NCBI GenBank assembly: GCA_041874725.1
Contig: CP097466.1
Span: 3,348,001-3,412,000 of the forward strand
From: Duganella sp. BuS-21
GTDB lineage: Bacteria; Pseudomonadota; Gammaproteobacteria; Burkholderiales; Burkholderiaceae_D
Length of the DNA: 64,000 nucleotides
Direction of reading: 5' to 3'
The notes beneath the pieces were generated by a model. It did not search any database, had not been told where the DNA came from, and saw only the letters and a list, made by a program, of their open reading frames with translations. This document shows positions 28,207 through 31,756 of the stretch, piece by piece (position 1 is the stretch's first letter; every line of letters starts with the position of its first letter). Made by a program: the position numbers and the translations under genes.

Positions 28207-28256
28207 TTCTATGTTAGTTCTTTATTTGATGTGCTTTATTTTGGGGAGTGATTTTG

Positions 28257-29459
28257 ATGTCTGGACACAAAGACGGCGCGGATGCCCTGTTCATCCTGCT
28301 CGGCGCCATCATGATTTTGGCTATGCATGCGGGTTTTGCTTTTCTAGAATTGGGCACGGTACGTAAAAAGAACCAGGTCAACGCGCTGGTGAAGATTCTG
28401 GTCGATTTTGCTGTGTCCACTATTGCCTATTTCTTCGTCGGCTACAGCATCGCCTACGGCATCAATTTCTTCTCCTCGGCCGAGGTGCTGGCCGCCAAAA
28501 ACGGCTATGAGCTGGTCAAGTTCTTCTTCCTGCTGACCTTTGCGGCCGCCATCCCGGCCATCATCTCGGGCGGCATCGCCGAGCGGGCGCGCTTCCATCC
28601 GCAGACCGTGGCCACCGCCTTGCTGGTCGGCCTGGTCTATCCCTTCTTTGAGGGCATCGTCTGGAACAACCGTTTCGGCGTGCAGGATTGGCTGGTGCAA
28701 GCCTTCGGCGCCGGCTTCCACGACTTTGCCGGTTCGGTGGTGGTGCATGCGGTAGGCGGCTGGATCGCGCTGCCGGCGGTGTTGCTGCTGGGCGCGCGGC
28801 GCGGCCGCTACATGAAGAACGGCGCCATCGCCGCCCATCCGCCATCGTCGATTCCGTTCCTGGCGCTGGGCGCCTGGATCCTGACGGTGGGCTGGTTCGG
28901 CTTCAATGTCATGAGTGCCCAGGCGCTGGACAAGATGAACGGCCTGGTGGCGGTCAATTCGCTGATGGCGATGGTGGGCGGCACGCTGGTCGCGCTGATG
29001 CTGGGCAAAAATGATCCCGGCTTCGCCTACAACGGCCCGCTGGCCGGCCTGGTGGCGGTGTGCGCCGGCTCGGACCTGATGCATCCGCTGGGCGCGTTGG
29101 TGACGGGCGGCCTGGCCGGCGCCATCTTCGTTTGGATGTTCACCCTGGCGCAAAATAAATGGAAAATCGACGACGTGCTGGGCGTCTGGCCGCTGCACGG
29201 CCTGTGCGGGGCCTGGGGCGGGATCGCCGCCGGCATCTTCGGCCACAAGGAGTTGGGCGGCGTGGGTGGCGTTTCCCTATGGTCGCAACTAGCGGGCACC
29301 GCCATGGGCGTGGCGGTCGCGCTGATCGGCGGCTATGCCGTTTACGGCCTGCTGAAGGCCACCATGGGCCTACGCCTCGACCCGGAGGAAGAGTTCCAGG
29401 GCGCCGACCTGTCGATCCACCGTATCAGCTCGACACCGGAACGGGAGGCAAACTGGTAG
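28257..29459 (+). CDS. amtB: Ammonium transporter (Amt family)
   Basis: A 400-residue inner-membrane channel with about eleven transmembrane segments. The ATG at 28257 has GGGGAG 8 nt upstream, whereas a GTG at 28248 overlaps that Shine-Dalgarno. Twin pore histidines are His164 (VVVHAVGG) and His314 (WPLHGLCGAWGG). Other family marks are AFLELGTVRKKNQVN, GGIAERARF and FEGIVWNNRFG. There is no signal peptide, as in some proteobacterial Amt proteins. No glnK precedes it, unlike the usual glnK-amtB order. The sigma-54 promoter and NtrC-like sites upstream indicate induction by nitrogen limitation. Confidence 0.95.
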   Translation: MSGHKDGADALFILLGAIMILAMHAGFAFLELGTVRKKNQVNALVKILVDFAVSTIAYFFVGYSIAYGINFFSSAEVLAAKNGYELVKFFFLLTFAAAIPAIISGGIAERARFHPQTVATALLVGLVYPFFEGIVWNNRFGVQDWLVQAFGAGFHDFAGSVVVHAVGGWIALPAVLLLGARRGRYMKNGAIAAHPPSSIPFLALGAWILTVGWFGFNVMSAQALDKMNGLVAVNSLMAMVGGTLVALMLGKNDPGFAYNGPLAGLVAVCAGSDLMHPLGALVTGGLAGAIFVWMFTLAQNKWKIDDVLGVWPLHGLCGAWGGIAAGIFGHKELGGVGGVSLWSQLAGTAMGVAVALIGGYAVYGLLKATMGLRLDPEEEFQGADLSIHRISSTPEREANW

Positions 29460-29597
29460 TGCAGCGATAGCCATAGGGGGAATGTTTTTTTGATACGTTC
29501 AATAAATTCAATTGACGTTCGGGCAATCATAATTCAGAATCAAGCGGCAAAAGAATATAGAGAAAAATGTTTTGATATTTTAAGATCGGCCCTACAG

Positions 29598-31034
29598 ATG
29601 AAACGATTCCCCAAACTACTGATCGCCGCGCTCGTAGCAGCTGCCTGTGTTCCATCGGCGCAAGCCGTGAATATGGTGGAAATTAGCGGCGCGCATACTA
29701 CCTTCTACTATGATGCCGATTTTTGGGGCTTGAATACGGCTAGCGTCGTCGGCGACAAAATCAGCTTCACCACGCCTGCCTATTTCAATCAGCACGCCGT
29801 TGGGCATGGCGTCAACGGTACAGGCAGTGATCGGTATACCAACCGATCCGCCTCGGCTGTGGTGGCAGTTGCGCACGCTGGCTATCAGCTGAGCGGTGGT
29901 GTCGACTATGACATCACCACTACTTACGCGCAGGCAACCACAGGTGCGTGGGCTAACTATGTCAACTCCAACGGCGTGGAAGCAGGTAGCTGGTCGGGTA
30001 ATAGCTTTGTCTCGGCCCAGCAAGTCGGCGACTTCACTATCTCGTACGGACGCAGCGCCAGCGAGAGCGGCACGGGTAGCGGATCCAACCTGACTATCGG
30101 CACGTCGGGCGGCGTCAGCGGCAGCTATCAGGCGGTGGCATTGAACAGCTATTTGTTCCTGATCGCCGAGCAGAAAGGTGCAGGATTCTCCGATGCTGGC
30201 TTGTCCAACGCGAGCTATGCGTTTAACGTGTCTGCCGTGCCGGAACCGGCCACTTATCTGATGATGTTGGGCGGCTTTGCCGCCTTGGGCCTGGCGGGGC
30301 GCAGGCGCCGCAAGCTGGTCGGCGGCACGCTGCTCGCCGCGGCCAGCCTGGCTGGCACTGCGCAGGCCGCGAACTACGTCGAGGTGACCGGTGCGCACGT
30401 GAGTTTTTTCTATGATGCGGATTATTGGGGCCTGGGCGCAGCGACTGTGGTTGGTGACAAGATCAGCTTTGATACCTCGTCATTTGCGACGCTGAACGCC
30501 ACTGGCAACACCCCGACCGAGAAAAACGACGCTATTTATTCCGACGTGGGTACTGCCGCCGTAGTGGCGGTGGCGCGAAACGGCTACAGCCTGACTGGCG
30601 TGATCGGGTTTAAGCCTGAGCTGAGCTACTCCCTGTCTGGCAACGGCGGTAACGTTACGCTGAGCGGTGGCGAGCAAATTGTCACCGGTGAGTTTGCCAA
30701 CGGCGCGTTCAGCCTGGATGGCGATGTCGGTTATGCTTCCTACAGTGTGTCCAAGGACTCCAATGGCTCGCCAAGTTCGGGCTTGACCAATCTGGATACG
30801 CAGATCGGCCAGTTGTACACTGGCTCGTCGTTGTTTGGCACATTGGCCCTAACGAGCCGTCCGTATCTGTCCGCCACGCAAATTGGGCTAGGCACGACGA
30901 TCACCAGCGTCAGCTACTCATACGATTTTGCTGTGACTGCGGTGCCGGAGCCGGCGACCTACGGCATGTTGCTGGCGGGTCTGGGCGCGCTGGCCCTGGC
31001 GGCTCGCCGCAAGGCCGGCAAGGATCTGGCCTGA
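29598..31034 (+). CDS. Tandem (fused) PEP-CTERM surface protein, two complete sorting modules in one frame
   Basis: A 478-residue protein. Order: signal peptide 1 (residues 1-23, ending SAQA), domain 1 (24-213), PEP-CTERM signal 1 (VPEPATYLMMLGG from 214, then RRRR), internal signal-peptide-like helix (about 240-257, LVGGTLLAAASLAGTAQA), domain 2 (258-448), PEP-CTERM signal 2 (VPEPATYGMLLAG from 449, then ARRK). Domains 1 and 2 are homologous: both open with a VEI/VEVxGAH, YYDAD/FYDAD, WGL, VVGDKISF series. The start at 29598 was chosen for its signal peptide; the upstream in-frame extension is AT-rich. PEP-CTERM proteins are sorted by exosortase; no exosortase gene is in the window. The domain itself matches no family I recognise. 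Confidence 0.88.
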   Translation: MKRFPKLLIAALVAAACVPSAQAVNMVEISGAHTTFYYDADFWGLNTASVVGDKISFTTPAYFNQHAVGHGVNGTGSDRYTNRSASAVVAVAHAGYQLSGGVDYDITTTYAQATTGAWANYVNSNGVEAGSWSGNSFVSAQQVGDFTISYGRSASESGTGSGSNLTIGTSGGVSGSYQAVALNSYLFLIAEQKGAGFSDAGLSNASYAFNVSAVPEPATYLMMLGGFAALGLAGRRRRKLVGGTLLAAASLAGTAQAANYVEVTGAHVSFFYDADYWGLGAATVVGDKISFDTSSFATLNATGNTPTEKNDAIYSDVGTAAVVAVARNGYSLTGVIGFKPELSYSLSGNGGNVTLSGGEQIVTGEFANGAFSLDGDVGYASYSVSKDSNGSPSSGLTNLDTQIGQLYTGSSLFGTLALTSRPYLSATQIGLGTTITSVSYSYDFAVTAVPEPATYGMLLAGLGALALAARRKAGKDLA

Positions 31035-31067
31035 TCCTCGCCTGGCAGGCTGGCCGCCGTCCAGCGG

Positions 31068-31643
31068 TCAGCGATGTATCACCACCAGCACGGCTTTCGC
31101 TTCTGTTTTGCCAACGTTGCGTATGATGTGTTGCTGGTCCCCCGGGTAGCGCGCCGTGCTACCCAGTTTGACCTTCTTCTTGCTGGTTCCCACTTCCACC
31201 TCCACCGAGCCGTGCAACAGCGTCAGGTGCTCCTGCGCACCAGGATCGTGGCCCTGCGAGGCCAGTTCGCCGCCTGGTGACAGCGTCAATTCATACCACT
31301 CATATTTGCTGGCCAGCTCCAGCGGCCCGAGGATGCGCAGCACATAGCCCGCGTGCAGGCCGGGCAGGGTGGGGATTTCGTGCGCCTCGATCACCCGGAT
31401 GGTCTCGGTCTGGCGCTCGCCGGTCGCCAGCAATTCGCCGATCTGCACGCCCAGCGCGTTGGCTAAACGCCACGTGATGGCGATGGTCGGATTGGCCTTT
31501 TCACGCTCGATTTGCGATAGCATGGACTTGGAAACGCCGGCGATGCGCGACAAATCCTCCAGAGTCAGGCCGCGGGCCAGGCGCAGTCGCTGCAGCGCGG
31601 CGCCGACTTCCGGGGGGGCATTGTTGGGTACAGGTGTTTTCAT
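31068..31643 (-). CDS. XRE-cupin transcriptional regulator of the threonine-degradation operon
   Basis: A 191-residue regulator. Residues ~13-68 are an XRE helix-turn-helix (LRLARGLTLEDLSRIAGVSK; LSQIEREKANPTIAITWRLA). The C-terminal half is a cupin (ELTLSPGGELASQGHDPGAQ; EHLTLLHGSVEVEVG; ARYPGDQQHIIRN). The start at 31643 excludes an AT-rich extension that covers the operator. It is divergent from kbl with 113 bp between starts. Regulators of this build commonly control the adjacent metabolic operon and sense an amino acid or related small molecule through the cupin. Threonine, glycine or serine is a reasonable guess here, not shown. Confidence 0.9.
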   Translation of the reverse strand: MKTPVPNNAPPEVGAALQRLRLARGLTLEDLSRIAGVSKSMLSQIEREKANPTIAITWRLANALGVQIGELLATGERQTETIRVIEAHEIPTLPGLHAGYVLRILGPLELASKYEWYELTLSPGGELASQGHDPGAQEHLTLLHGSVEVEVGTSKKKVKLGSTARYPGDQQHIIRNVGKTEAKAVLVVIHR

Positions 31644-31679
31644 TGTTTGGGTTGCGGAGTTCACTGGATCGCTATAAAA

Positions 31680-31713
31680 TTCAATATATCGAATTAAAAT
31701 TCGACATAACGAA
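31680..31713. promoter_or_regulatory. Two-site operator between XRE-cupin gene and kbl
   Basis: TTCAATATATCGAA (31680-31693) and TTCGACATAACGAA (31700-31713) are two 14-bp dyads of form TTCR-N6-CGAA. Their centres are exactly 20 bp apart, two helical turns, which would place two repressor dimers on one DNA face. They lie in the divergent promoter region, 44 bp upstream of kbl. Confidence 0.65.
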
Positions 31714-31756
31714 TTTCGCATAAGGTGGCGGAATCGTATCACATACAAGGACCATC

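Follow-up and report, generated by a model that had tools for sequence, protein, structure and literature searches.

The cytochrome b/c1 precursor (fbcH) of Bradyrhizobium japonicum holds two exported parts in one chain with a leader between them, and is cut at this internal signal sequence. It is not known to bear an exosortase signal, and its parts are unrelated proteins and not a tandem duplicate. Proteins of the PEP-CTERM/exosortase (EpsH) system (PF07589, TIGR02595) are made with a signal peptide and a sorting signal composed of a PEP motif, a TM helix and a basic tail. Haft et al. (2006, PMC1569441) describe this signal as terminal, with a median of three residues between the match and the end of the protein; the few signals lying far from the end were suggested to be perhaps non-functional, on the grounds that they vary more. 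Passages of that paper and of PMC12188702 that mention multiple PEP-CTERM signals mean several proteins or regions per genome, not two signals per chain. The literature searched, which covered few subscription papers, contained no description of two PEP-CTERM signals in one chain and no text pairing PEP-CTERM with a polyprotein.

We analysed a stretch of 64,000 nucleotides (the window) from Duganella sp. BuS-21, whose genome of 6.49 Mb is a single contig. A 478 aa frame, open from ATG 29598 to the stop at 31034 with no internal stop, encodes in this order a putative N-terminal signal peptide, a domain of the beta-sandwich type, a full PEP-CTERM signal, the block RRRRK, a leader, a homologous domain and a second PEP-CTERM signal (Table 1). 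ATG 29598 was taken as the start in preference to TTG 29490, an alternative start of the same ORF, because relatives align to the former. The reading frame confirmed the uninterrupted arrangement of two leaders and two PEP-CTERM signals that an earlier note on this DNA had claimed, and both VPEPATY motifs, placed there at residues 214 and 449, were found in the translation and in the alignment. With the EpsH system the protein has in common a putative signal peptide, a PEP motif followed by a TM helix and a basic tail, and the presence of XrtB and EpsI; it differs in having two signals per chain, the first followed by 239 residues and a second leader. Like fbcH, it has in one frame an internal leader-like stretch between two parts, whose export and separation we infer.

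Table 1. Positions of the fused gene, its parts and its surroundings in the window
Feature	Position	Strand	Basis
Fused double PEP-CTERM preprotein gene	29598..31034	+	478 aa and stop; open frame; 11 full-length and 1 partial database proteins of the same architecture
N-terminal signal peptide, residues 1-23 (...SAQA/V)	29598..29666	+	Inspection; alignment with relatives
Mature domain 1, residues 24-213, beta-rich	29667..30236	+	Whole-protein model, mean pLDDT 68.4; profile matches
First, internal PEP-CTERM, residues 214-239 (VPEPATY, hydrophobic stretch, RRRRK)	30237..30314	+	PF07589 32.1 bits, signal alone (cut-off 20.7); TIGR02595 27.5 bits, above cut-off
RRRRK block, residues 235-239	30300..30314	+	RRR[RK][KR] in 13/13; tail of signal 1, proposed n-region of leader 2
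Internal signal-peptide-like leader, residues 240-257	30315..30368	+	18 aa, uncharged, ends AQA in 13/13; predicted signal peptidase I cut after 257
Mature domain 2, residues 258-448, beta-sandwich	30369..30941	+	AlphaFold2 model, mean pLDDT 91.2
Second, C-terminal PEP-CTERM and tail, residues 449-478 (signal 449-472, then six residues)	30942..31031	+	PF07589 37.2 bits, signal alone (cut-off 20.7)
Ammonium transporter amt, left slot border	28248..29459	+	PF00909; syntenic in relatives
HTH-cupin (XRE-type) regulator, right slot border	31068..31748	-	PF01381 and PF07883; match in 73/74 genus-group genomes, own included
kbl-like aminotransferase	from 31757		Next after XRE-type regulator
Promoter-like TTGACG-N17-CAGAAT	29512..29540	+	Consensus scan

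The promoter-like pattern TTGAC[GT]-N17-CAGAAT was also read by eye upstream of the fused gene of Duganella sp. SG902 (in locus L030 of that genome, G050). A count of the pattern, one found against 0.01 expected, is no independent test, because the pattern was drawn up after the site had been seen. Beyond the kbl-like gene come what we take, from sequence type, to be epimerase-like and sda-like genes.

The homology of the second domain to the first, also asserted in the note, was borne out by 34% identity between them (alignment A2) and by phmmer, with which each half found the other (domain E-values 6.9e-34 and 1.3e-33). The best NCBIfam match of the whole protein was the FxDxF family PEP-CTERM model NF038126 (75.2 bits, cut-off 50). 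The single halves scored less, with 42.3 bits for domain 1 plus its signal, below the cut-off, and 50.0 for domain 2 plus its signal, at the cut-off; their best stretches, 162-237 and 173-233 of 239, lay in the C-terminal part. The elongated beta-sandwich of Bd1399 and DUF4360-like proteins has two conserved disulfides, according to PMC10792529. The mature domains of the fused protein differ in having no cysteine, the sole one among the 478 residues being residue 17 in the signal peptide.

Both PEP-CTERM signals, each with a PEP motif, a TM helix and a basic cluster, scored above the cut-offs of PF07589/TIGR02595. TIGR02595 matched 47 times in the whole genome, with a median of 2 residues after the match; in 46 cases 0-9 residues followed. 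The second signal of the fused protein, with 6 residues after the match, stands at the extreme C-terminus in the usual way. The first is the sole exception among the 47, and we call it an internal PEP-CTERM-like signal because 239 residues come after it. Since all other matches in the genome end 0-9 residues from a stop, the internal position of this one is not due to chance. Elsewhere in the same genome (G000:C1:1440873-1441842) two PEP-CTERM signals lie at a distance of about 0.9 kb, both ending 3-5 residues before a stop; they may belong to a further tandem pair of genes for surface proteins.

The RRRRK block (235-239) runs directly into the leader LVGGTLLAAASLAGTAQA (240-257). Signal peptidase cut sites follow the AXA rule, and this leader was judged by its composition and its AXA end, the N-terminal signal peptide by inspection. 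The leader resembles a signal peptide lacking only its Met, and domain 2 could also be made alone by internal translation initiation, with the fusion only partly a polyprotein. We consider this very improbable. Residues 231-262 contain no in-frame ATG, GTG or TTG in either the window's own genome (G000) or Duganella sp. SG902 (G050), only CTG, and the 13 aligned rows have L, V or F at position 240. An ATG is in frame at residue 222 in both genomes, and M222 is found in 13/13 rows, but this methionine is part of the PEP-CTERM signal, and signal 2 has its counterpart in the invariant M457. A missing Shine-Dalgarno sequence counts as weak evidence here, because the fused gene itself also starts without any Shine-Dalgarno match of three or more bases.

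Proteins with two PEP-CTERM signals, the first of them internal, were looked for in the protein database, and apart from the window's own protein 12 others were found, 11 full-length and a fragment (P0013, on a contig of 1254 bases). They were 56-63% identical to the window protein in the alignment, and came from Duganella sp. SG902 (P0007) and from contigs of lgn, jgi and ena sources. A repeat search that used the alignment as query gave no additional double protein; each database search scored 7995 candidates. The junction was present in 13/13 rows as VPEPA[TS]Y, a hydrophobic stretch, RRR[RK][KR], an 18-residue uncharged leader and AQA. The N-terminal signal peptide was whole in 11/13 rows, P0011 beginning at residue 8 and P0013 being without an N-terminus. 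When domain 2 alone was the query, so that unfused proteins were admitted, P0013 was followed only by proteins that matched most of the domain at 42% identity or less. Among the 7995 candidates scored there was thus no close unfused orthologue of domain 2; domain 2 was the single domain used in this way, and the 13 rows themselves come from a fused query under a length limit, in which unfused close relatives could be under-represented.

The same junction in 12 other database proteins at 56-63% identity argues against a mistake in sequencing or assembly by which the stop and start between two tandem genes were lost. Unfused tandem copies do exist in the same slot of relatives, but other assemblies read through at this level of identity, and we rejected the idea as hardly credible. 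A stop or frameshift hidden at the junction, which the earlier note had named as the result that would overturn it, is likewise made very unlikely by the 12 proteins that read through. Two of the double PEP-CTERM proteins, P0003 and P0010, are named 'pyridoxine 5'-phosphate synthase PdxJ' by a source. This name looks like a misannotation, because PF07589 is the sole family listed for either.

Conservation along the chain was compared by the mean identity between pairs of the 12 full-length rows. VPEPATY reached 0.976, the 14 residues after it (the first TM stretch) 0.697, RRRRK 0.933, the internal leader 0.731 with 1.0 for its AQA, the N-terminal signal peptide 0.73, domain 1 0.685 and domain 2 0.616. 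The stretch from VPEPATY to AQA was more conserved than either domain (0.818 and 0.731 vs 0.685 and 0.616), with the leader and the first TM stretch, taken by themselves, barely above domain 1. The codons of G000 and G050, the two of the 13 sequences in which the junction was readable as DNA, gave a pN of 0.056 for the leader, 0.138 for the first PEP-CTERM and 0.278 and 0.321 for the domains. The corresponding pS values were 0.389, 0.529, 0.641 and 0.746, and pN/pS was 0.14 for the leader, a rough figure because the leader has only 18 synonymous sites, 0.26 for the first PEP-CTERM and 0.43 for each domain. Non-synonymous change in the leader was therefore about one fifth of that in the domains, or about one third after scaling by synonymous change. 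These comparisons support protein-level constraint on both the internal leader and the first PEP-CTERM. The fused frame, too, is supported as real and conserved.

The conservation bears directly on the idea that the fusion left the first PEP-CTERM and the leader behind as relics, the product being in effect one two-domain PEP-CTERM protein. Atypically placed PEP-CTERM signals were indeed suggested to be perhaps non-functional in PMC1569441, but relics should drift, and the VPEPATY-AQA stretch is instead more conserved than the domains in both identity and codons. The argument from variability made in that paper does not apply to the fused protein, because its internal signal shows good conservation. 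All 13 rows retain the stretch, in a set whose fused query favours intact ones. We therefore hold the relic idea to be quite improbable.

A single PF09721 exosortase, XrtB (355.1 bits, cut-off 275), was found in the genome, with a type B EpsI beside it, so that a cognate exosortase is at hand. Among several explanations the most likely is a polyprotein, and we regard it as probable that in-frame fusion of two tandem PEP-CTERM preprotein genes gave a product that is cut into two surface proteins. On this model, the N-terminal signal peptide would start Sec export and domain 1 would reach the periplasm. The first PEP-CTERM helix (about 217-234) would run from out to in and stop at a cytoplasmic RRRRK, and helix 240-257 would pass back from in to out, acting as a second signal peptide whose n-region is RRRRK. 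Domain 2 would then be freed by a cut of signal peptidase I after AQA-257, exosortase B would act at both PEP sites, and the outcome would be two surface proteins in fixed ratio. Membrane topology, all cleavages, surface location and ratio are predictions made from the amino acid sequence; the positive-inside rule is applied to PEP-CTERM in the same way in PMC1569441.

The two hydrophobic stretches flanking a short basic loop could also form a helical hairpin (about 217-257) stable without cleavage, in which case the internal leader would stay uncut, the hairpin would tie a single two-domain protein to the inner membrane, and only the C-terminal signal would be acted on by exosortase. A mere anchor should need neither an AQA that is invariant in 13/13 rows nor a near-invariant VPEPATY, and we consider the uncut form unlikely. 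In the polyprotein model, we hold it as likely as not that one basic block of a conserved bacterial surface polyprotein has two roles, forming the cytoplasmic tail of one exosortase signal and at the same time the n-region of the signal peptide that follows. If this is true, exosortase could use a signal that does not stand at the chain's original C-terminus, and a single chain would supply two surface proteins in fixed ratio. The conserved internal PEP-CTERM and conserved leader offer a natural test of whether exosortase needs a chain-end signal.

The fused form is rare. In the genus group as drawn, 74 genomes with our own included, at least 14 had a family match at E 1e-20 or better (at most 21 candidates scored per genome). 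A 74-residue junction query gave at least 29 matches in at least 19/74 genomes at E 1e-9 (at most 78 candidates), and among those scored only two, in our own genome and in Duganella sp. SG902, covered the whole query without a stop. The same two genomes were the only ones among 392, a sample of a larger family, to match a 52-residue query at E 1e-11 among the candidates scored (at most 17 per genome; at most 4 in another family-sample search). One locus set took in 80 of 130 loci. The fused form thus stands at 2/74 in the genus group and 2/392 in the family sample.

The fused gene sits between amt and the XRE-cupin regulator, and the flank of this regulator was examined by script in all 73 genomes that have it (10 regions already fetched and 63 flanks, two of these shorter than 5 kb: L187, 2400 bases, and L204, 4128 bases). 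Family members lay between amt and the regulator in 8/73 genomes, two of them with a fused gene: our own genome has the fused gene and Duganella sp. SG902 the fused gene and a single one. The six others carry single or tandem homologues, with three singles in G066, two each in G039 and G054, and one each in G065, G035 and G063. In 23/73 genomes (21 plus G002 and G026) amt and the regulator were under 300 bases apart and the gap contained no family member; 7 genomes had other spacing and 35 had no amt in the flank. These slot genes of Duganella and near relatives, which we call YDADFWG-type from the alignment, have the same domain family, slot and signals as the fused gene and differ from it in being separate genes, one G066 pair overlapping by the stop/start ATGA at L031:8615-8618. 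This overlap is a state next to fusion, and it suggests translational coupling among YDADFWG-type PEP-CTERM genes. Single, tandem, overlapping and fused states in one slot of one genus group may mark a route from tandem surface-protein genes to a bacterial polyprotein.

When the mature domains were placed in a tree, the 12 domain 1 rows and the 13 domain 2 rows were each set off by a branch (100/99 and 100/96), and both sets joined in one starred group (99/89). A second tree with more singles, into which 7 of the 12 full-length doubles were taken, agreed (100/99, 98/92, 96/89); both trees have a weak backbone and long branches. Because domains 1 and 2 each form one supported side and group together, the sequences fit one tandem duplication and then one fusion, before the fused lineages split. 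The double protein itself is thus confirmed, and its origin by fusion of a tandem duplicate, which the earlier note had proposed as the simplest, is well supported by sequence comparison: single-copy and tandem homologues occupy the same slot in relatives, and the alignment of both domains with single-copy homologues gave trees that fit duplication followed by fusion.

PEP-CTERM gene content is variable in the amt-XRE interval (29460-31067 in the window; L030-L033, L035, L036 and L038). In G002 and G026 amt abuts the regulator, and one family member is found on the far side of amt (L039:6819-7583 and L040:6413-7177). Neighbouring unfused pairs of the same family were also seen at L043:6811-8367 (G050) and L034:7158-8750 (G052), with neither amt nor the regulator in the stretch read.
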